The notes under the pieces are model-generated. The model was given only the letters and a program-made list of their open reading frames with translations. It was not told the origin of the DNA and made no database searches. Below, piece after piece: positions 54,550 to 64,000 of a DNA stretch of 64,000 nt. The translations under genes were made by a program, and so were the position numbers. Source of the DNA: Cyclobacteriaceae bacterium (GTDB lineage: Bacteria; Bacteroidota; Bacteroidia; Cytophagales; Cyclobacteriaceae); NCBI GenBank assembly GCA_947458585.1, contig CANGYY010000004.1, positions 1 to 64,000 of the forward strand, read 5' to 3'. The stretch's first letter is position 1; the number at the start of each line of letters is the position of its first letter.

Positions 54550-55238
54550 TGATGACATTATTACAAACACTTGCAATTGATTCTGTGGCCACAGTGCCAG
54601 CCGCTGACGAAGCTACCACTCAATCCATTGGTTTGCTGGACCTTCTGATTAAAGGTGGATACATGATGATTCCGCTGTACGTTTTGTTTGTGTTGGCGAT
54701 TTTCATCTTTGTACAGAAGTTATTGGTGATCAAAAAAGCATCCAAAACACCTGGTCATTTGATGGATCAGGTCAAACTATTGGTACAAAGTGGTCAAGTA
54801 GAAAAAGCAAAAATGATTTGCGCAGGGGACAATACCCCCGTGGCCAACATGATTTCCAAGGGAATTGATCGAATCGGATCTCCTTTGAAAAACATTGAAG
54901 TGGCCATTGAGAATGTTGGTAAACTGGAAATCTACAAATTGGAAAAGAATCTAGGTGTCCTAGCCACAGTTTCCGGTGCTGCACCCATGATTGGGTTTCT
55001 AGGGACAGTAACGGGGATGATCCAAGCCTTTATTTCTATTGCTCAAGAAGACGGCATGGTATCACCCAAACTGCTTTCTTCTGGGATTTACGAAGCCATG
55101 ATTACCACAGCAGCCGGCTTGGTAGTGGGAATCGTAGCCTATTTGGGATACAACTATTTGGTGACTCAGGTTTCTAAATTGGTCCACCACATGGAGTATA
55201 CTTCCATCGAATTTATTGACCTTCTTCAGGATAAATAA
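54549..55238 (+). CDS. exbB: ExbB/TolQ/MotA-type proton channel subunit
   Basis: About 229 residues with three transmembrane helices: LIKGGYMMIPLYVLFVLAIF (~30-50), then the conserved pair around GVLATVSGAAPMIGFLGTVT (~140-160) and the third helix near GIYEAMITTAAGLVVGIVAY. The polar Thr/Ser residues that form the proton path with ExbD are in place. ExbB-ExbD motors energise TonB at the outer membrane. The start at 54549 (ATG overlapping the previous TGA) is preferred to the ATG at 54531, which would add six residues read inside the SPOR gene. Confidence 0.92.
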   Translation: MMTLLQTLAIDSVATVPAADEATTQSIGLLDLLIKGGYMMIPLYVLFVLAIFIFVQKLLVIKKASKTPGHLMDQVKLLVQSGQVEKAKMICAGDNTPVANMISKGIDRIGSPLKNIEVAIENVGKLEIYKLEKNLGVLATVSGAAPMIGFLGTVTGMIQAFISIAQEDGMVSPKLLSSGIYEAMITTAAGLVVGIVAYLGYNYLVTQVSKLVHHMEYTSIEFIDLLQDK

Positions 55239-55240
55239 GC

Positions 55241-55633
55241 ATGGGACTCCAGCAAAAAAATAAAGTAGATGCTTCCTTCAGCATGTCCTCCATGACGGAT
55301 ATCATCTTTCTTTTGCTTATTTTTTTCATGCTCACCTCTTCTTTCATTACCCCATCAGGACTTTCGGTGAATTTGCCATCCAGTGAAACTTCTGATATTG
55401 TGATGCAGGAGGTGACTGTTTCAGTGACGAAGGACTTGCAATTTTCAGTCAACGATCAACTCACTTCTCGTGAGCAATTGAAGGCGGTACTTACTCCATT
55501 ATTGGAGGGCAAAAAAGGTCAGGTAGTCCTGCATTTGGACAAAGAAGTACCTGTGGAGTACCTAGTAGAAATTGGGGGCATCGCAGCTGGTCTCGGTGCC
55601 AATGTATCCATTGCTACCAAACCCTACAACTGA
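55241..55633 (+). CDS. exbD: ExbD/TolR biopolymer transport protein
   Basis: A 130-residue bitopic protein. A short N-terminus leads into the single helix SSMTDIIFLLLIFFMLTSSF (~17-36), whose Asp (TDIIF) is the essential proton-carrying residue of the ExbD/TolR family. A small periplasmic alpha/beta domain follows (VVLHLDKEVPVEYLVEIGGI). It starts 2 bases after the ExbB stop, and its TGA overlaps the TonB-like start. It works with ExbB and TonB. Confidence 0.93.
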   Translation: MGLQQKNKVDASFSMSSMTDIIFLLLIFFMLTSSFITPSGLSVNLPSSETSDIVMQEVTVSVTKDLQFSVNDQLTSREQLKAVLTPLLEGKKGQVVLHLDKEVPVEYLVEIGGIAAGLGANVSIATKPYN

Positions 55634-56520
55634 TGCTCGATGTGAATTCAAATTCACTGGAACGGAAAAGTCGGATTCAATCCGCAGTGGTCACATTCGT
55701 GATCCAACTGCTGTTGTTTTTGGCTTTTTACTTCATGGTCGTGTGGGAGCAACCCAATCCACCCACCCCAACTTATGGTTTGGAATTGAATTTGGGATTT
55801 TCGGATTTTGGTTCTGGAGATCCATCCGAAGTAATGCCCAATTCCTCCGAAATTCCTATCACTGAAGCTCCGGCTCCGGGTGAAATCGTTCCCCCAACCC
55901 AAACAGCTGTTGCTACAAGTAACGCCACGGCTTCGAATCCCAAGCCAAGTGCCTCCCAAGCCGTCAGTACGCAACCTTCTCCCATCAAAGGAGAGACTGT
56001 GGCAAGCCCAACACCACTGAAGGAAGAAGCCAAAGAAGTTCCGAGCAATCAAAAGGTGGCCGAACAGCCCAAGTTGGACCAGCGTGCAGTTTTTGGTGCA
56101 GGCGGGAAAAGAGGAAGTGGCGCTAATGCAAGTAATGGATCTAGTCAAGGAAACTCCAATACCTCTGGTGATCAAGGAAAACCTACTGGAACTATAGATG
56201 GAAGAGCTTTACAAGGTTCCGGATCGGGTAAAGGTGAAGCTGGAGGCGCAGGATATAGCCTTGACTTAGCTGGATGGGATTTTGCCTCTCGGCCAAGTAT
56301 CAATGATCGGGTTTCCACTCGTAATGGTCGGATTGTATTTAATATCACCGTGGATGGATCAGGAAAAGTGGTTCAAGCAATAGTTCATGAATACAATGTT
56401 TCCAACGAAGTATTGGCTTACTACCGTCAGGTAGTCAATCAACTGGATTTTAAAAAATCTGGAGGCTCAGCCGCAGAATTCTCCAAGGGCAAAATCACCT
56501 TTGTGATCAAGGTAGAATAA
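55633..56520 (+). CDS. TonB-like energy transducer
   Basis: A 295-residue bitopic protein with one N-terminal helix (~14-35, SAVVTFVIQLLLFLAFYFMV). A long Pro/Ala/Ser/Gly-rich periplasmic stalk (~60-190) includes a low-complexity Gly/Ser/Asn part. The TonB C-terminal alpha/beta domain (~215-295) shows RIVFNITVDGSGKVVQAIVH, then a helix and a final strand, GKITFVIKVE. It overlaps ExbD by one base and precedes folC by 3 bases. It should span the periplasm and pull on an outer-membrane partner, most plausibly the barrel encoded upstream. Confidence 0.85.
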   Translation: MLDVNSNSLERKSRIQSAVVTFVIQLLLFLAFYFMVVWEQPNPPTPTYGLELNLGFSDFGSGDPSEVMPNSSEIPITEAPAPGEIVPPTQTAVATSNATASNPKPSASQAVSTQPSPIKGETVASPTPLKEEAKEVPSNQKVAEQPKLDQRAVFGAGGKRGSGANASNGSSQGNSNTSGDQGKPTGTIDGRALQGSGSGKGEAGGAGYSLDLAGWDFASRPSINDRVSTRNGRIVFNITVDGSGKVVQAIVHEYNVSNEVLAYYRQVVNQLDFKKSGGSAAEFSKGKITFVIKVE

Positions 56521-56523
56521 AGC

Positions 56524-57816
56524 ATGAATTACCAAGAGACGCTGGATTACCTTTTTAATGCATTACCCATGTTTCAACGGGTAGGAGCGTCTGCATACAA
56601 AGCCGATTTAACCAACACGATTGCACTTTGTACCCATTTGGGTAATCCTCAAGAGCAATTTAAATCCATTCATGTGGCAGGTACCAATGGTAAGGGCAGT
56701 ACTTCCCATTCCTTGGCATCCATATTTCAAGCTGCAGGCTACAAAACGGGCCTCTATACCTCACCACACCTGAAGGCGTTTACCGAACGAATTCGAGTGA
56801 ATGGCGAAGAAATAAACAAAGACGATGTCGTAGAATTTGTGGCTACCCACAAGGATTTTTTGGATCAACTGAAGCCCAGTTTCTTTGAAATGACCGTAGG
56901 CTTGGCCTTTTGGTATTTTGCCAAGGAGGAAGTTGACATTGCAATCATTGAAGTGGGTATGGGTGGGAGATTGGATAGCACCAATGTGATTTCGCCCGAA
57001 CTTTGCGTCATTACCAATATAGGCTTTGACCATACCCAGTTTCTTGGAGATACACTTCCCTTGATTGCTGGGGAAAAAGCAGGCATCATCAAGGCGAGTG
57101 TACCTGTAATAGTTAGCCATACCCAAAAAGAAATTCAGGCGGTATTTCTCCAAAAGGCTACTGAAATGCAAGCCAGCCTTGTTTTTGCAGATCAGCAATG
57201 GGAGGTAACTCGAATCCAAAATTCGGATGCATCCCAACTCGCTAGATTTCAGGTAAAGGGAAGAGCTGATGCTTTTGAATTGGAATTTGGGTTGAGAGGA
57301 GATTACCAGCGATACAACCTGCCGGGAATTTTAGAAGCCGTAGAGCAACTAAGGAAACAGGGTTGGAAACTGAGTAAAGAAGCCCTTCATTTGGGATTGG
57401 CGCGTGTTTCAGAGCAAACAGGACTAAAAGGCAGGTGGCAGATTTTGCAAACCCAGCCACTCACTATTGCCGATACAGGTCATAACGAAGCGGGGATAAT
57501 AGAGGTGGTGAATCAACTGAAAAAATACCCCTTTTCCCAACTTTGGATGGTGATCGGGATGGTAAATGACAAGGATATCTCCAAAGTTTTGGACTTACTT
57601 CCAAAAGATGCGACCTATATTTTTTGCCAAGCAAGCATCCCACGCGCAATGGATGCAGATATATTGGCAAGCAAGGCATTGGAAAAGGGTTTAATGGGAC
57701 AGGTAATTCCCAAAGTGACGGATGCGATTGAATTTGCTCGAAAAAATGCAGGAGCAGATGACCTGATATTTATTGGAGGTAGTACTTTTGTGGTCGCAGA
57801 AATTGAAGACCTCTAA
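56524..57816 (+). CDS. folC: Bifunctional folylpolyglutamate synthase / dihydrofolate synthase
   Basis: A 430-residue Mur-ligase-family enzyme that adds glutamate to dihydropteroate or folate. The ATP loop is VAGTNGKGSTSHS (~53-65). Other marks are SPHLKAFTERIRVNGEEI, EVGMGGRLDSTNV and NIGFDHTQFLGDTLPLIAGE followed by KAGIIK. The start lies 3 bases after the TonB stop, and its TAA overlaps trmB (TAATG), so the folate and tRNA genes share a message with the ExbB-TonB set. Confidence 0.95.
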   Translation: MNYQETLDYLFNALPMFQRVGASAYKADLTNTIALCTHLGNPQEQFKSIHVAGTNGKGSTSHSLASIFQAAGYKTGLYTSPHLKAFTERIRVNGEEINKDDVVEFVATHKDFLDQLKPSFFEMTVGLAFWYFAKEEVDIAIIEVGMGGRLDSTNVISPELCVITNIGFDHTQFLGDTLPLIAGEKAGIIKASVPVIVSHTQKEIQAVFLQKATEMQASLVFADQQWEVTRIQNSDASQLARFQVKGRADAFELEFGLRGDYQRYNLPGILEAVEQLRKQGWKLSKEALHLGLARVSEQTGLKGRWQILQTQPLTIADTGHNEAGIIEVVNQLKKYPFSQLWMVIGMVNDKDISKVLDLLPKDATYIFCQASIPRAMDADILASKALEKGLMGQVIPKVTDAIEFARKNAGADDLIFIGGSTFVVAEIEDL

Positions 57817-58478
57817 TGAGTAGAAAAAAACTGGTTCGCTTTGCCCAAAACGAAGTCAATCCCAATGTAGTCCAGGCAGGCAAGCCTATTTTTGAACAGA
57901 TTAAAGGGCAGTGGAATGCGCTTCAGTTCCAAAATGAGCAACCCTTAGTCGTGGAACTTGCCTGTGGAAGAGGGGAGTTTACCTTGGGTCTAGGAAGACA
58001 ATATCCCACACAAAACTTTATTGGAGTAGATATCAAAGGAAGTAGAATCTGGAAAGGAAGTTCAACTGCTACGGCCGAAGGCATTCCTAATGTGGCCTTC
58101 TTGCGAACCCAAATTCAACAACTGGATACTTTTTTCGCGCCAAGTGAGATTTCTGAACTGTGGATTACTTTCCCAGATCCTTTTCCACGTGATGGGGATG
58201 AAAAACGACGCTTGACCTCAGCCAGATTTTTGGAGATGTACAAGCAACTCGTGAAAGCGGGGGGAACCATCCACTTCAAAACAGACAATACAGGCCTATT
58301 CGAGTATACCGAGGAGGTTTTGGCTTCCCGATCGGATTGCAAAGTTTTGTTCGTTACGACTGATTTTTATGCAAGCGAACTGCGGGATGCCCACCACGGA
58401 ATCAAAACTCGCTACGAGAAGATTTTTTCCGACAAGGGGGAAAAAATCAAATACATTCAATTTTCCTTTATCGAATAA
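57816..58478 (+). CDS. trmB: tRNA (guanine-N7-)-methyltransferase
   Basis: A 220-residue SAM-dependent enzyme that methylates G46 of tRNA. Visible are VVELACGRGEFTLGLGRQYP (SAM loop), IGVDIKGSRIW, and WITFPDPFPRDGDEKRRLTS (the conserved DP-P block with downstream Arg residues), plus the late FETDN-like KTDNTGLFEYT. The length is typical. The TAA of folC overlaps its start codon. Its last 11 bases overlap the convergent 3-hydroxyacyl-CoA dehydrogenase gene. Confidence 0.93.
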   Translation: MSRKKLVRFAQNEVNPNVVQAGKPIFEQIKGQWNALQFQNEQPLVVELACGRGEFTLGLGRQYPTQNFIGVDIKGSRIWKGSSTATAEGIPNVAFLRTQIQQLDTFFAPSEISELWITFPDPFPRDGDEKRRLTSARFLEMYKQLVKAGGTIHFKTDNTGLFEYTEEVLASRSDCKVLFVTTDFYASELRDAHHGIKTRYEKIFSDKGEKIKYIQFSFIE

Positions 58479-59346
58479 AATCCGGTTCTCGGTAGCGTGG
58501 ATTGGGATAGGAATAAAATCCTTCGCCGGTTTTCTCTCCTAGTTTTCCTTGATCAATGTAGGTTTTCAAATGGGCAGCAAAGGCCTGTGAAGCTGAATCC
58601 GGCATTTTGTGGGTAACGTGCCAAGCGGTATCCAATCCAATGGAATCCAATATCCCAAAAGGCCCCATGGGCATGTGGAAGTTCACCATCCAAGACTTGT
58701 CAATATCTTCAATGCTACCCACCTCACGTGTGATTAGTTTGCCCGCCGCACCCAAAAGGGCCATCAGCATTGTGTTGAATAGGTATCCAGGGTTCTCTTT
58801 TCGTACGATTACAGGAACTTGATTTAATTTCCTTCCCAATTCTTCTAGGATCCCAATCAATGCAGGATCGGTACCAGGATGGGGCATGATATCTACCACC
58901 CTAGAATAGAACACATCGTGAAAATGGAAGGCACAAAACCGGGAAGGGCTACCAGTTTCTTCTGCAAACAGAGAGGGGAGTAGGTAAGAGGTATTTGTGG
59001 TCAACCAAGTGTGGGATTCCGCGAGTTTGCCTACTTCGGTCCAAAGTGATTTTTTGATATCTACATTTTCCGTAACGCTTTCATTGACCAAATCAGCGCC
59101 TTTCAAGGCTTCAGCTAAGTCCAAGGTAGGCTGGATTCGTTGGAGGATCTCGGGAACTTGTGATTCCGTAAGTGTTCCACCACGTACCAGTTGACGGAGG
59201 ATTTTTTGCATGGTGAGGATGGCCGAATCCAAGGATGCCTGTTTCAGATCAAAAATGGAAACGGTAAATCCAGAGATAGCAGATTGGAGGGCTACTCGGG
59301 AGCCAAGCGTGCCTGCTCCAAGGATGCAAATTTTATGAAGGGTCAT
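58468..59346 (-). CDS. 3-hydroxyacyl-CoA dehydrogenase
   Basis: A 292-residue NAD-dependent enzyme. The Rossmann loop is GAGTLGSRVALQSAISGF (~9-26). The catalytic His lies in FHFHDVFYSRVVDIM (~143), followed by the C-terminal helical domain with KENPGYLFNTMLMALLGAAG and DSIGLDTAWHVTHKM. It oxidises 3-hydroxyacyl-CoA to 3-oxoacyl-CoA. It is last in a four-gene minus-strand operon, starting 3 bases after the kinase gene, so it would act on the product of the upstream dehydrogenase/kinase steps. Confidence 0.92.
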   Translation of the reverse strand: MTLHKICILGAGTLGSRVALQSAISGFTVSIFDLKQASLDSAILTMQKILRQLVRGGTLTESQVPEILQRIQPTLDLAEALKGADLVNESVTENVDIKKSLWTEVGKLAESHTWLTTNTSYLLPSLFAEETGSPSRFCAFHFHDVFYSRVVDIMPHPGTDPALIGILEELGRKLNQVPVIVRKENPGYLFNTMLMALLGAAGKLITREVGSIEDIDKSWMVNFHMPMGPFGILDSIGLDTAWHVTHKMPDSASQAFAAHLKTYIDQGKLGEKTGEGFYSYPNPRYREPDFIR

Positions 59347-59349
59347 GGG

Positions 59350-60378
59350 TTAGATTTTATCAGTTTGAAGAGTTTGAATGGCTTTTTTGCCAGCGGCATC
59401 CACCACATGGATGAGTTGAGCAAATCTAGGATCTGTTGAAAAGCCTTGGGAATAACGTTTGAAAATTTGTTGGGCGATCACGGCTACTTTCACTAATCCA
59501 AAGACATAGTAAAAGACCATTTCTTGTTTGGAGCCCTTTCCTTTGGTAAAATAATAGGCCATGATTTCTTCCCGGCTGAGATTGCCGGGCAAGTGACTTA
59601 AATTGAATAGTTTTAAAATCTGTGGATCGTTTTCCTCCGCCCAATAGGCCAGGCTAGTGCCTAGATCCATCAGCGGATTGCCTACCGTGGCCATCTCCCA
59701 ATCCAATACTCCTTTGATAAGGGTGGGATTCTGGGGGTCCAAAACCAAGTTATCGTATTTGAAGTCGTTGTGAATGAAGGCAAGGTATTCGGTGGAAGGA
59801 ATATTTCCCTGGAGCCAAGTTGCTGCTTGTTCCAACTCTGGAAGCTCATTCGTTTTTGCTCGAAAATACCGGTCTACCCATCCTTCCACTTGGCGTTGGG
59901 TGTAGCCTTCTGGCTTTCCCAAGTGAATAAGGCCCGATTCCTGAAGTTCGAGTTGATGTAGTTCGAGAAGGCAGTCTACCGCCGAACGGGATAAGGCAGC
60001 AAAGCCTTCCTTTTCTAGGGTCATTCCTTGAGGAACTCGATTTCTCAAAATTGCTCCTTCCAGATACTCCATGATAAAGAAGGGAGCACCAAGAATGGAT
60101 TCTTCGTCACAAAAGTGAATTGGCTGTGGACTCTTGGTGTAGCCTGCCTTTTTCAATCCCTCAAGGATCCTAAATTCCCTACCCATGTCGTGTGCCTTGG
60201 CTATTTTTTCACCAAAGGGAGGACGTCTCAAGATGAATTTTTCAGTAACACTTTCTACAAGAAAGCTCAAATTGGAATAGCCACCTGGGAGTTGGGTTAC
60301 CTGTATCTTGTCAGCAGCACAGTGGAGTACTGGGTCCAAATAATCCTTAAGCAAATCAAAAGTTAATTCACTATTCAT
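59350..60378 (-). CDS. APH-type phosphotransferase (LvaA / ACAD10-ACAD11 kinase-like)
   Basis: A 342-residue kinase of the aminoglycoside-phosphotransferase fold. It shows VTQLPGGYSNLSFLVE (glycine loop), KFILRRPPFG, the catalytic Brenner motif HNDFKYDN (~203-210) and the metal-binding VLDWEMATVGNP (~224-235). These are the marks of the ACAD10/11-kinase and LvaA group, not of drug-resistance enzymes. In mammals and in Pseudomonas putida, such kinases phosphorylate the 4-hydroxyl of 4-hydroxyacyl-CoA. Its start overlaps the acyl-CoA dehydrogenase stop by 4 bases (ATGA). Confidence 0.9.
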   Translation of the reverse strand: MNSELTFDLLKDYLDPVLHCAADKIQVTQLPGGYSNLSFLVESVTEKFILRRPPFGEKIAKAHDMGREFRILEGLKKAGYTKSPQPIHFCDEESILGAPFFIMEYLEGAILRNRVPQGMTLEKEGFAALSRSAVDCLLELHQLELQESGLIHLGKPEGYTQRQVEGWVDRYFRAKTNELPELEQAATWLQGNIPSTEYLAFIHNDFKYDNLVLDPQNPTLIKGVLDWEMATVGNPLMDLGTSLAYWAEENDPQILKLFNLSHLPGNLSREEIMAYYFTKGKGSKQEMVFYYVFGLVKVAVIAQQIFKRYSQGFSTDPRFAQLIHVVDAAGKKAIQTLQTDKI

Positions 60379-61583
60379 TTACTGACGTAATTTTTAAGAA
60401 TACTTCGGGCAAGGGCAGACTTGTGTACCTCGTCAGGGCCATCGTAAATACGTGCTCCTCGTTCGTGTCGGTACCAATAGGATAGCAGCGTATCATCGGT
60501 GATGCCTAGTGCTCCATGGACCTGGATGGCTCGGTCAATCACTTTCATGAGTACATCGGCCACAAAAAATTTGATCGTTGAAATGTCTTCTTTGACTGCT
60601 TTCGCGCCATTTTCTTGCATTTTCTGGGCGGTATCGAGCACCATGAGTCGGCTGGCTTTGATTTCTGCTCGACTTTCTGCAATCCAGTTTTGGATGGTTT
60701 GCTTGTCTGCCAAGTGCTTGCCTACTTCTAGTTCTCGAGATAGCGCACGTCTGCACAGCATATCAAATGCCCGTTCGCAGATGCCAATCCAACGCATGCA
60801 GTGGTGAATTCGTCCAGGTCCCAGTCGTTCTTGCGCCAAGGCAAATCCCTGACCTTCCATACCAATTCGGTTGGACACGGGTACTCGGCACTGCTCAAAT
60901 TTGACTTCAGCATGGGAGAGGTAATCTTCTCCCGCTTCACCCATAATGGAAATGTTGCGAACCAAGGTGTAGCCTGGCGTATCCAAGGGGAGCAAGATCA
61001 TGCTTGCTTTCTGGTAGGGAGAAGGCGCATCGGGATTGGTAACGGCCATGACGATGGTGAATTGAGCCCCATCAGCGGCTGTGGTAAACCATTTGTGGCC
61101 TTGAATCACATAATCTTCCCCATCCCGGGTGGCTGTGGTAGCCATATGGACTGGATTGCTACCTGGAAGTTGAGGTTCGGTCATGGCAAAGCAGGAGCGG
61201 ATTTCTCCGCGTTGCAGGGGTCCAAGCCACTTTTCTTTCTGTTCCTCCGAACCAAACTGGTGGAGCAATTCCATGTTGCCTATATCTGGAGCATTGCAGT
61301 TGAATACGTAATGTCCGATCGGGCTTTGGCCCAAAATTTCAGACACCTGGGCAAATTGCACGAGGTTCAAACCCAGGCCACCTTCATTCTTGGCTAAATG
61401 TGGAGCAAATAGACCTAAAGACTTTGCCTTTTCCCGGAGGGCCTTTAGTGCTGGTAAATAAGACTTAAATGGTCCTTTGACCACATCCAAGTCTATGGGG
61501 AATAGTTCCTGTTCTACAAACTGACGATAGGCAACCAGCAGTTGCTGCAGTTGTGCTGCCGAGATTTCTTGGGTTGGGTTCAT
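60375..61583 (-). CDS. Acyl-CoA dehydrogenase of the ACAD10/ACAD11 type
   Basis: A 402-residue flavoprotein with the usual ACAD domains. Group-specific marks are YVFNCNAPDIGNMELLHQFG (~95), SCFAMTEPQLPGSNP and, near the end, RIYDGPDEVHKSALARSILK (~378-397). The APDxGNMELL and YDGPDEVH pieces are typical of ACAD10/11 and LvaC. In known systems this enzyme, together with an APH-type kinase, converts 4-hydroxyacyl-CoA through a 4-phospho intermediate to the 3-hydroxyacyl-CoA isomer. It lies 7 bases after the SDR stop and overlaps the kinase gene by 4 bases. Confidence 0.92.
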   Translation of the reverse strand: MNPTQEISAAQLQQLLVAYRQFVEQELFPIDLDVVKGPFKSYLPALKALREKAKSLGLFAPHLAKNEGGLGLNLVQFAQVSEILGQSPIGHYVFNCNAPDIGNMELLHQFGSEEQKEKWLGPLQRGEIRSCFAMTEPQLPGSNPVHMATTATRDGEDYVIQGHKWFTTAADGAQFTIVMAVTNPDAPSPYQKASMILLPLDTPGYTLVRNISIMGEAGEDYLSHAEVKFEQCRVPVSNRIGMEGQGFALAQERLGPGRIHHCMRWIGICERAFDMLCRRALSRELEVGKHLADKQTIQNWIAESRAEIKASRLMVLDTAQKMQENGAKAVKEDISTIKFFVADVLMKVIDRAIQVHGALGITDDTLLSYWYRHERGARIYDGPDEVHKSALARSILKNYVSK

Positions 61584-61590
61584 TGTAAAA

Positions 61591-62358
61591 TCAAATGGTA
61601 AAGCCTCCGTCTGCGGTCAAAATGGCTCCAGTCGTATAGGTAGAAGCGGGAGAGGCAAGAAACAAGGCCATGGCACCAATTTCCTCTGAGGTTCCCGCTC
61701 TTTTTATGGCCAACTGCTTCAAGATCATGGACATGATTTTTTCATTGGACCAAAGTGCTTCTGAGAATTTGGTTTGGATAAGTCCGGGGCAAATGGCATT
61801 GACACGAATCTTGGAATCACCCCATTCCTTGGCAAAAACCTTGGTTAAGGAAATCAAGGCCGCTTTGGATACCGAGTAAATTCCCAAACCTTGTTCCGGG
61901 GAAATTCCTCCGATGCTGGAAATATTGATAACCGAGGCACCAGCCGATTTTCTGAGGTGAGGATAGCACAATCTACTGAGTTCAAAAGCCGCCTTCACAT
62001 TCACGTTCATGATCTTGTCAAAGGCTTCAAGGGTTGTTTCATGAACAGGGCCAAAAACCGGATTGCTGGCAGCATTATTCACTAAGATGTCGATGCCACC
62101 ATATTTCTCAACCGTCTTTTCTACCAGAACCTTGAGTTCTTCCATGTTTCCCACATTGCAGGCAATTCCGGAGACCTCATAGCCTTTAGCGTTGAGTTGC
62201 TGTGCTTGCTCATCCAATACCTCTTGCTTTCTGCTACTAATGACTACTTTGGCACCTGCTGCAGCAAACATTTCTGCAATGCCAAATCCAATGCCTTTGC
62301 TAGCCCCTGTAATCAGGGCTACTTTTCCATCCAATGAAAAAACTGAAGATAAATCCAT
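61591..62358 (-). CDS. Short-chain dehydrogenase/reductase (LvaD-like position)
   Basis: A 255-residue classical SDR. It has the TGASKGIGFGIAEMFAAAGA cofactor loop, the NNAASNP motif, a Ser in INISSIGG, and the catalytic YSVSK (~160-164). Its FabG-like length and C-terminus (LTADGGFTI) fit a keto-acid or hydroxyacyl-CoA reductase. I choose the ATG at 62358 (MDLSSVFSLDGKVALITGAS). The ATG at 62406 adds a 16-residue hydrophobic lead that looks like promoter sequence read through. It is first in the operon, facing a divergent MDR-family gene. Confidence 0.88.
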   Translation of the reverse strand: MDLSSVFSLDGKVALITGASKGIGFGIAEMFAAAGAKVVISSRKQEVLDEQAQQLNAKGYEVSGIACNVGNMEELKVLVEKTVEKYGGIDILVNNAASNPVFGPVHETTLEAFDKIMNVNVKAAFELSRLCYPHLRKSAGASVINISSIGGISPEQGLGIYSVSKAALISLTKVFAKEWGDSKIRVNAICPGLIQTKFSEALWSNEKIMSMILKQLAIKRAGTSEEIGAMALFLASPASTYTTGAILTADGGFTI

Positions 62359-62469
62359 TTGTTTTTGGGTTATTTTTCTTCCAAAAGATAGGAAAAATAT
62401 GGCCATGCTGTAACTTGTGGGCCAAGCAAATTCATTAATTATCCCTCATTATCTCTTTTTTCTATCCCC

Positions 62470-63441
62470 ATGAAAGAATTAATTTTTGATCAAACTGGCA
62501 CACCACAAGAGGTCTTGTATCTCAAGGAAAGTGAAATGCCTCAACCTAAGGCACATGAAGTGCTGATCCGAGTGAAAGCCAGAAATATCAACCCTTCAGA
62601 CATCATGTTTGTGCGTGGAATGTATGGCATCACCCCCAAACTCCCGAGTAGTGCAGGATTTGAGGCGAGTGGGGTAGTAGAAAAAGGAGATGAATCAGGA
62701 AAAGTAGCCGCAGGTACCCGGGTGATGTTTACGGCTATCGGCACCTGGAAAGAATATGTTTGTGTGCCAGCGGCTCTAGTCATTCCTATTCCTGGGCAGA
62801 TGTCAGACGAGGTGGCCTGTCAGGCATTTGTCAATCCAATGACGGCCTATGGGATGATTGAAGAGGCAGGTCTACAGGCTGGGCAATGGCTTTTGATTAC
62901 AGCAGGAGCATCTGCGTTTGGCAAATTCGCTATTCAGATGGCTAAAGCGAAGGGCATTCGAGTGGCTGCCACTGTTCGCCATGAATCTCAGAAACAATTG
63001 TTGATGGATTTAGGGGCAGAACTAGTCATCAATACCAGTACCGAGAAATTGGCGAAGGTGATTTTTGAGAAAACTGAGGTAGGCGTAGATGTGGTCTTTG
63101 ATGCAGTCGGAGGGGAGTTGGGTGTAAAAGCCTTGTCTTGTCTAAAGCAAAAAGGGCGGATGCTCGTATTTGGTGCACTTGCTTTGGAAAACCTGTCCAT
63201 TAACAGTGGCTTGCTGATCTTTAAAAATCTACGCATCGAGGGATTCTGGTTGAGTACCTGGATTGAGGAACTTTCTGCCGAACAACGGATGAAGGCTTTC
63301 CAACGGGTATTTGGATTTTTTATGCAGGATGAATCGAAGGTGGATGTGGCCGCAACTTATCCCTTGTCCGAATTTAAAGCCGCTTTAGATGCTTACGAAA
63401 AAGCGGGAAGAAATGGAAAAATCCTGCTTGTGAGTGAATAG
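62470..63441 (+). CDS. MDR-family zinc-free oxidoreductase (quinone / enoyl-CoA reductase type)
   Basis: A 323-residue medium-chain reductase. It has MKELIFDQTGTPQEVLYLKE, the FEASGVVEKG lobe, QAFVNPMTAYGMIEEAG (typical of ETR/MECR-like enoyl reductases), the NADPH site TAGASAFGKFAIQMAKAKGI, and FDAVGGELG. The catalytic zinc ligands of alcohol dehydrogenases are not seen. It might reduce an enoyl-CoA, ketone or quinone. It is divergent from the SDR-ACAD operon and may share its control. Confidence 0.85.
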   Translation: MKELIFDQTGTPQEVLYLKESEMPQPKAHEVLIRVKARNINPSDIMFVRGMYGITPKLPSSAGFEASGVVEKGDESGKVAAGTRVMFTAIGTWKEYVCVPAALVIPIPGQMSDEVACQAFVNPMTAYGMIEEAGLQAGQWLLITAGASAFGKFAIQMAKAKGIRVAATVRHESQKQLLMDLGAELVINTSTEKLAKVIFEKTEVGVDVVFDAVGGELGVKALSCLKQKGRMLVFGALALENLSINSGLLIFKNLRIEGFWLSTWIEELSAEQRMKAFQRVFGFFMQDESKVDVAATYPLSEFKAALDAYEKAGRNGKILLVSE

Positions 63442-63510
63442 TTGGTCCAATGGAACGGCTATTTTTAGGATTATCGCCATATTTGCAACCGAATAATTAA
63501 GACAGTTACC

Positions 63511-63933
63511 ATGAATTGGGAAAAAATTGACCAGGAACTCACTGAAATTGTGCAACAGCGAATTCAGTTAAGCGCTTTGGAATATAGTGATGAAAATTAC
63601 GACGATTTAGAGGAGCAATTACACGACCTCGAAGATGACTTCAATGAGCATTACGAGGATGTTTTGGCTCCTGAATTGGAAAAAATTTATACCAAGTTGA
63701 AATCAGATACGGATGTCCTTCTACCTACAGCCTATTTGGCCAATACCTACCAGGAAATGCTTCCAGATGCAAAAGGAAGTATAACCTATGAGGTAAGTGG
63801 GGAGCAAGGGGTGCCCATTGAATCGGATCAACTCGGAAAAGTGGATATGCGAATTGTACTTATCCCAAACCCAGTTCGATTTGTATTGCTGGTCAACGGC
63901 AAGCAATTGAAAGAATTGTGGAAAAGTAGGTAA
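63511..63933 (+). CDS. Acidic cytosolic protein of unknown function (140 aa)
   Basis: A 140-residue protein that is strongly acidic and helical for ~70 residues (EQLHDLEDDFNEHYEDVLAP). A more hydrophobic end follows, GKVDMRIVLIPNPVRFVLLV with NGKQLKELWKS. No signal peptide or catalytic pattern is visible and I recognise no family. It lies 69 bases after the MDR gene and ends in a strong terminator. Confidence 0.7.
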   Translation: MNWEKIDQELTEIVQQRIQLSALEYSDENYDDLEEQLHDLEDDFNEHYEDVLAPELEKIYTKLKSDTDVLLPTAYLANTYQEMLPDAKGSITYEVSGEQGVPIESDQLGKVDMRIVLIPNPVRFVLLVNGKQLKELWKSR

Positions 63934-63934
63934 A

Positions 63935-63963
63935 GAAAAAGGGGCGAAAGCCCCTTTTTTTTT
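63935..63963. terminator. Bidirectional Rho-independent terminator
   Basis: AAAAAGGGGC-GAAA-GCCCCTTTTT, with A and T runs on either side, follows the acidic-protein gene. It would also serve a gene entering from the right. Confidence 0.92.
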
Positions 63964-63971
63964 AGAATAAA

Positions 63972-64000
63972 CTAGCCTGCACAGCCTGTGGCTTCGTGGC
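63972..64000 (-). CDS. Possible C-terminus of a gene entering from the right
   Basis: Eight codons ending in HEATGCAG and a TAG at 63974-63972 are open to the window edge on the minus strand. They are followed by the terminator at 63963-63935. The pattern of stop then terminator suggests a real gene end, but eight residues cannot identify it. Confidence 0.35.

Follow-up and report, generated by a model that had tools for sequence, protein, structure and literature searches.

A kinase and acyl-CoA dehydrogenase gene pair from a Cyclobacteriaceae genome, predicted to act on 4-hydroxyacyl-CoA, marks a little-studied bacterial branch of the ACAD10/11 family

Introduction

Mammalian ACAD10 and ACAD11, together with their Burkholderia relatives, phosphorylate the 4-hydroxyl of 4-hydroxyacyl-CoA with ATP, after which their acyl-CoA dehydrogenase (ACAD) part converts the product to a 2-trans-enoyl-CoA without an added electron acceptor (PMC11342911). 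In mouse ACAD11, residues R626, H634 and R637 bind the 4-phosphoacyl group and D753 is catalytic (Rashan et al., PMC12440821), while P463 of human ACAD11 is a helix-breaking proline tied to a wider cavity (Paquay et al., PMC11342911). The lva genes of Pseudomonas encode a kinase (LvaA), an ACAD (LvaC) and LvaD, a short-chain dehydrogenase/reductase (SDR) that reduces levulinyl-CoA to 4-hydroxyvaleryl-CoA (PMC6692424). Here, we analyze a related locus in a 64,000-nucleotide stretch of a Cyclobacteriaceae genome (contig CANGYY010000004.1, positions 1 to 64,000, assembly GCA_947458585.1), hereafter the window, where four minus-strand open reading frames (ORFs) encode, in order of transcription, an SDR, an ACAD, an APH-fold kinase and a stand-alone 3-hydroxyacyl-CoA dehydrogenase-like protein (HCDH).

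From residue conservation and co-occurrence, the kinase and the ACAD are very probably a 4-hydroxyacyl-CoA kinase and its 4-phosphoacyl-CoA-eliminating partner. The functional unit is this pair, which comes and goes as one, the SDR and the HCDH also serving without it. The chemistry itself was already known; the novelty lies in a part of the ACAD10/11 family that has received little study and extends over many bacterial phyla.

Results

The ACAD and the kinase carry the residues of ACAD11

The ACAD (402 aa; 60375..61583, minus strand) was assigned to the ACAD10/11 type using Pfam, PDB sequences, residues, a tree and an AlphaFold model. Its best solved sequences are ACAD11 (8v3u/8v3v, E 5.7e-86; 8v3u is taken as mouse ACAD11, after PMC12440821), human ACAD11 (2wbi) and then 4hr3 from Mycobacterium abscessus (1.2e-82), ordinary ACADs appearing in this list only from E 1.6e-42. 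The model (mean pLDDT 90.2) is nearest by fold to 4hr3 (TM 0.91) and ACAD11 (0.89), followed by human 2wbi_B (0.86), with ordinary ACADs at 0.84 or below among the matches listed.

In the alignment, R253, H261, R264 and D381 of the window ACAD are the equivalents of mouse R626, H634, R637 and D753. We compared 143 rows with at least 80 bits and at least 250 aligned residues, namely the window, mouse ACAD11, 117 window-like rows (at least 50% identity to the window ACAD), 18 classic rows (35-50%) and six others; these rows are not independent, as they include near copies and the same contigs enter under more than one locus. All four residues are kept in 117/117 window-like rows, 17/18 classic rows and none of the six ordinary ACADs, and R631, which is general to ACADs, is present throughout (143/143). 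P99, the proline of the APD motif, which occupies a separate column near that of P463, is kept in 135/135 window-like and classic rows and in 2/6 ordinary ones. The sole classic row to depart from the pocket, the ACAD of a Streptomyces plasmid (L156), carries a Tyr instead of the phosphate-binding His.

The kinase (342 aa; 59350..60378, minus strand) is a predicted 4-hydroxyacyl-CoA kinase on the basis of PF01636, PDB sequences, residues, a model and co-occurrence. It matches best 9o56 (9.7e-75), an entry called simply aminoglycoside phosphotransferase, followed by the kinase domain of ACAD11 (3.8e-44) and 3dxp. Its D205, N210 and R162 are the equivalents of the catalytic D220, the helper N225 and the CoA-contacting R176, and D226 is present as well. 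The kinase alignment comprises 119 rows, counting window and mouse, each aligned over 220 residues or more; all 119 have the D220 and N225 equivalents, and 118 have that of R176. An Arg beside the helix-C Glu is also kept in 119/119 rows; it is numbered 83, a mismatch with the published R86, and hence was not counted. The kinase model (mean pLDDT 90.6) has 3dxp as its first fold match and 25-hydroxysteroid kinase (25-HSK; 9fsg) as its second. The motifs on which an earlier sequence-only reading of this DNA had relied are all present: the kinase has HNDFKYDN at residues 203-210 and DWE at 226-228, and the ACAD has APDIGNMELL at 98-107 and YDGPDEVH at 380-387.

A relative of the kinase in a Hydrogenedentota metagenome-assembled genome (MAG; L207:7709-8793) is split over two overlapping frames, owing to a frameshift or a sequencing error. 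An APH gene that lies beside an ACAD and a ligase gene on contig C59 of the same genome as the window was considered as a second module and rejected, its ACAD neighbor (L124) being devoid of the pocket residues.

The ACAD belongs to a separate subclade of broad taxonomic spread

The ACAD tree was built from 65 chosen rows of the 143. A branch supported at 99/98 separates all rows with the pocket, the window and mouse ACAD11 among them, from the six ordinary ACADs, so that the grouping with ordinary ACADs against which the sequence-only reading had to be checked is not seen, with mouse ACAD11 and bacterial relatives as references. Inside the pocket-bearing clade, 17 of 19 classic rows group together with ACAD11 and Burkholderia multivorans (100/99), the latter a stand-in for the B. 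pseudomallei proteins that were substituted for ACAD10 domains in PMC11342911. The 40 window-like rows form a separate subclade (99/95), which two classic rows (Rhodococcus, Massilia) join at 94/79. The B. multivorans protein is 52% identical to mouse ACAD11 and 44% identical to the window ACAD.

The window-like subclade bears at least 15 phylum labels, taken from the sequence records, over its 40 tree rows, mostly MAGs; the scan behind this spread and behind the named loci used below covered the best 80 of at least 588 confirmed matches. The suggestion of a distinct Bacteroidota version was thus too narrow, all the more as 5 of the 22 pair-bearing genomes of the phylum carry the classic subtype. 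The kinase tree (54 rows, with the C59 APH on a very long branch as outgroup) departs from the ACAD tree outside Bacteroidota, and this disagreement suggests that kinases were exchanged between ACAD types. Strict co-descent of kinase and ACAD was accordingly rejected, although their co-occurrence still holds.

Kinase and ACAD share their genomes

At the cut-offs used for the phylum (E up to 1e-70 for the ACAD and up to 1e-40 for the kinase), both proteins are found in the same 22 of 296 genomes and no genome holds one alone; apart from the five with a classic ACAD, the pair-bearing genomes have the window-like type. Even in genomes where the two genes occupy separate contigs or are some 8 kb from each other (G275, G283, G190, G178), both are present. 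Among 58 near relatives, the ACAD was detected in 30 and the kinase in 31 (E up to 1e-30), their presence agreeing in 57; the same-genus genomes without an ACAD are also all without a kinase (11/11).

At a larger scale, the kinase lies within 3 kb of the ACAD in 60 of the 79 named loci that were scored (L238, the eightieth, was left out), and in 43 of the 54 that have at least 3 kb on both sides. Seven other genomes with an ACAD and no kinase within 3 kb were checked, and all seven hold a kinase elsewhere. Altogether, the closest solved sequences, the residues of the pocket, the tree and the joint occurrence bear out the proposal that the kinase and the ACAD are of the ACAD10/11 and LvaA/LvaC kind, their function being predicted.

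The pair is missing as a unit from a conserved slot in some genus mates

The nearest named relatives of the window ACAD, among the matches listed, come from a Cyclobacteriaceae MAG (95%) and from Algoriphagus aquaeductus (81%), a named species with isolates, which is why the genus of the window is probably Algoriphagus as judged from this protein. Within the genus, the four genes occur in the same order and on the same strand in 18/18 fetched ACAD regions (L064-L066, L085-L099), a conservation that makes the arrangement more than chance. Judging by match positions, it is also found in seven of the eight remaining same-genus genomes with an ACAD, the exception being G296.

Nine genus mates without an ACAD were also fetched, and kinase and ACAD are both missing from the neighborhood in all nine. 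The slot is still recognizable by the adjacent MDR-family reductase-like gene described below (QOR; 8/9), by a small gene found at 63511 in the window (9/9) and by trmB-folC (4/9). The SDR and HCDH genes stand side by side in two of these pair-less slots (L241 and L244, 8 bp and 51 bp apart), the SDR gene alone remains in four (L240, L242, L243, L245) and the HCDH gene alone in three (L246-L248). Searches over the 58 relatives agree that one or both remain where the pair is missing. Because kinase and ACAD are jointly missing from a slot in which SDR, HCDH or both stay, the functional unit is the pair.

A concatenated tree requires four gains or losses of the pair in the genus, two of which are forced by well-supported branches. 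As this tree comprises 32 chosen rows, realigned after gap removal and several of them half empty, and as it omits G304 and treats G296 as having no pair in the slot, we bracket the changes at two to four. Loss is likelier than gain, since the full block is present in other Cyclobacteriaceae.

The exceptional genome G296 (L249, L250) has SDR and QOR genes in the home slot; its ACAD (65%) and kinase (45-47%) are divergent and sit on other small contigs, which reflects either replacement by transfer or contamination. Separately, the contig CAMBMU010000009.1 (L161), titled Spirosoma fluviale, encodes proteins identical to those of contig C9 of G322; its title looks wrong, as G322 belongs to the genus of the window.

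Gene layout and flanking genes

The source genome is an 82.6% complete assembly of 2.78 Mb. All four genes of the block received family names from Pfam, and their tight packing, as first described, was confirmed together with the coordinates: the HCDH and kinase genes are 3 bp apart, the kinase and ACAD genes overlap by 4 bp (ATGA) and the ACAD and SDR genes are separated by 7 bp.

The SDR oxidoreductase gene (61591..62358, minus strand) opens the block. Its frame is open from 62406; we prefer the start at 62358 because several genus mates (e.g. L091 and L092) have only a 255-aa frame, with a start equivalent to 62358 and with stops falling within the longer match. The SDR has Pfam support and DHRS4 as its closest solved relative, 2zat and 3o4r leading its PDB sequence list. 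DHRS4 is a carbonyl reductase, and the SDR is a candidate for the interconversion of 4-oxo- and 4-hydroxyacyl-CoA. At the other end, the HCDH (58468..59346, minus strand; Pfam 3HCDH_N and 3HCDH) best matches the diketoreductase 4dyd and then 3-hydroxybutyryl-CoA dehydrogenases, scores 309.4 against a PRK08293 cut-off of 312, and is a candidate for a downstream step.

Divergently from the SDR gene and after a gap of 111 bp comes QOR (62470..63441, plus strand), a syntenic neighbor encoding an MDR-family reductase-like protein. We considered it as a fifth member and did not keep it, given that it remains in eight of nine pair-less genus mates; it lies within 3 kb of the ACAD in 8/79 named loci, seven of these being slot loci from Algoriphagus or near kin, and is probably outside the operon. 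MDR genes also occur in a few distant loci. A search around the SDR-QOR gap for a Bacteroidetes-type promoter pattern gave no match. Downstream of the block lie convergent genes that, by reading only, we take to be trmB and folC.

The rest of the pathway

LvaB corresponds to DUF6285. No match to DUF6285 (PF19802) was found in the 82.6% complete genome, nor any ligase (LvaE) or regulator (LvaR) among the ORFs of 55000-64000, which were surveyed by reading, with Pfam run on five. The observation that an LvaB-like partner and a ligase are not adjacent therefore stands. Five AMP-ligase matches are located elsewhere in the genome; on one contig (C11), an AMP-ligase gene is accompanied by those for a thiolase, an ACAD and a protein containing 3-hydroxyacyl-CoA dehydrogenase domains, so that the enoyl-CoA could be burnt there.

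Two kinds of genes recur in loci of these ACADs. Electron transfer flavoprotein (ETF) genes accompany window-like ACADs in L198, L200, L202, L216, L222, L226 and L237 (Pfam on two), loci labelled Desulfobacterota, Deltaproteobacteria and Planctomycetes, and yet the ACAD10 reaction needs no external acceptor. A histidine phosphatase-like gene is found in 16 loci of both ACAD subtypes (e.g. L058:3424-4098, L222, L225 and L231; PF00300 was assigned by Pfam for L058 only) and in the lva cluster of P. citronellolis, and is absent from the window block.

Discussion

Proposed mechanism and alternative readings

By analogy with ACAD11, the kinase would use ATP to phosphorylate the 4-hydroxyl of a 4-hydroxyacyl-CoA. 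The ACAD would then hold the resulting 4-phosphoacyl-CoA via R253, H261 and R264, with D381 taking the alpha proton, and would use FAD transiently, lose phosphate and return the electrons to give a 2-trans-enoyl-CoA with no net oxidation, ordinary beta-oxidation completing the breakdown of the acid. The SDR may feed 4-hydroxyacyl-CoA into this route or withdraw it through an LvaD-like 4-oxo/4-hydroxy conversion, and the HCDH may oxidize 3-hydroxyacyl-CoA. Levulinate would come in as a substrate through analogy alone, nothing pointing to it in particular.

An extension of this scheme would make the four genes one dedicated pathway, running from the SDR through kinase and ACAD to the HCDH. The four-gene order, seen in all 18 fetched same-genus regions, recurs in loci of Aquiflexum, Cognataquiflexum, Mongoliibacter and Lunatibacter, some SDR match (weak ones counted) lies within 3 kb in 34 of the 79 scored named loci, and LvaD, which reduces levulinyl-CoA, is likewise an SDR (PMC6692424). 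Moreover, ACAD10 and LvaC preparations yield some 3-hydroxyacyl-CoA, for which a contaminating hydratase may be responsible (PMC11342911). However, genus mates without the pair still retain the SDR, the HCDH or both, an HCDH match is within 3 kb in only 14/79 scored named loci, 12 of which are titled Bacteroidota, and the block has no hydratase. We consider the extension possible but somewhat doubtful, and the roles of SDR and HCDH as dedicated steps are not established. The pair could alternatively resemble 25-HSK, which phosphorylates a tertiary steroid hydroxyl ahead of elimination (PMC8449060), in which case the ACAD would work on a steroid side chain bound to CoA. The second rank of 25-HSK by fold would fit, as would the cytochrome P450 or bile acid symporter genes near some plasmid-borne relatives of the pair; its sequence match to the kinase is far weaker than that of the ACAD11 kinase domain (1.2e-8 vs 3.8e-44), no steroid gene was recognized, by reading only, in the ORFs around the block, and the lyase acting after 25-HSK is given as unknown, with no candidate near its gene (PMC8449060). 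This makes a steroid system very improbable. We give equally little credence to an ordinary acyl-CoA dehydrogenase that happens to neighbor an unrelated small-molecule APH kinase: the Pfam/NCBIfam names of both proteins are generic, none being over a specific cut-off, and ETF genes accompany some members of the ACAD subclade, but every window-like row has pocket residues absent from ordinary ACADs, with Asp replacing the catalytic Glu, and kinase and ACAD share their genomes.

Several observations weigh against our assignment of the pair as 4-hydroxyacyl-CoA kinase and eliminating ACAD. Identity to mouse ACAD11 is 41% for the window ACAD and 30% for the kinase; the trees contain neither LvaA, LvaC nor ACAD10; and the ACAD11 kinase domain does not appear among the 50 fold matches listed for the kinase model. 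One near relative, G344, a 720-contig assembly, has the kinase and no ACAD match, a kinase is missing from the 3 kb around the ACAD in 11 of the 54 well-flanked named loci, and, as regards the block as a whole, SDR and HCDH persist without the pair and the HCDH has an Asp where five aligned enzymes have Glu. No assayed member of the window-like subclade was found, and a literature search of limited coverage returned nothing on DUF6285, on a Bacteroidota version or on bacterial homologs. Finally, at the column fitting human P463, as deduced from numbering, the window has H91; this column holds a near-constant His in window-like rows (108/117), in which Pro is never found (0/117), and a Pro in only 6/18 classic rows. 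The cavity proline consequently does not define the bacterial members, and the H91 column may, on alignment grounds, mark a different substrate pocket in the window-like subclade.

A bolder proposal, which we regard as rather unlikely, is that the window-like ACAD and its kinase serve as a general bacterial route for salvaging 4-hydroxyacyl-CoA, whether this arises from lipid peroxidation, gamma-lactones or 4-hydroxybutyrate; such a route would reach beyond levulinate, do without LvaB and include lineages of anaerobes. For 4-hydroxybutyrate, the pair would replace the radical 4-hydroxybutyryl-CoA dehydratase by an oxygen-tolerant route driven by ATP. If the broad subclade does act on 4-hydroxyacyl-CoA, this chemistry is far commoner in bacteria than Pseudomonas suggests. 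More immediately, the pair of the window marks a branch of the ACAD10/11 family for which natural null strains exist in the same genus, with the slot kept and the pair gone. Kinase and ACAD are the genes to treat as a functional unit, and we advise against labelling all four genes together as a pathway for levulinate.

Comparison with known systems

The 25-HSK system shares with the window an APH-fold kinase that activates a hydroxyl for elimination (PMC8449060), but differs by its substrate, by the lack of a known ACAD partner and by its weak sequence match. Closer are the plasmid-borne kinase-SDR-ACAD clusters of Caballeronia, Azoarcus, Deinococcus and Azospirillum, which have the same three-gene core; their ACADs, however, belong to the classic subclade, and three of the four clusters include a gene for a histidine phosphatase that has no counterpart in the window block.

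The Pseudomonas lva genes, compared here by description, likewise encode kinase, ACAD and SDR as separate genes close together, and the cluster of P. citronellolis is, like the window, without lvaB (PMC6692424). In contrast to P. putida, the window has no DUF6285 match and no adjacent ligase, and has an additional 3-hydroxyacyl-CoA dehydrogenase. Mammalian ACAD10 and ACAD11 resemble the window pair in combining kinase and ACAD, in the R/H/R pocket, in the catalytic Asp and in the predicted two-step chemistry (PMC12440821, PMC11342911). They differ in that kinase and ACAD are fused there and encoded by two separate genes in the window, whose ACAD, compared with ACAD11, falls in a separate subclade and has a His at the column fitting P463.

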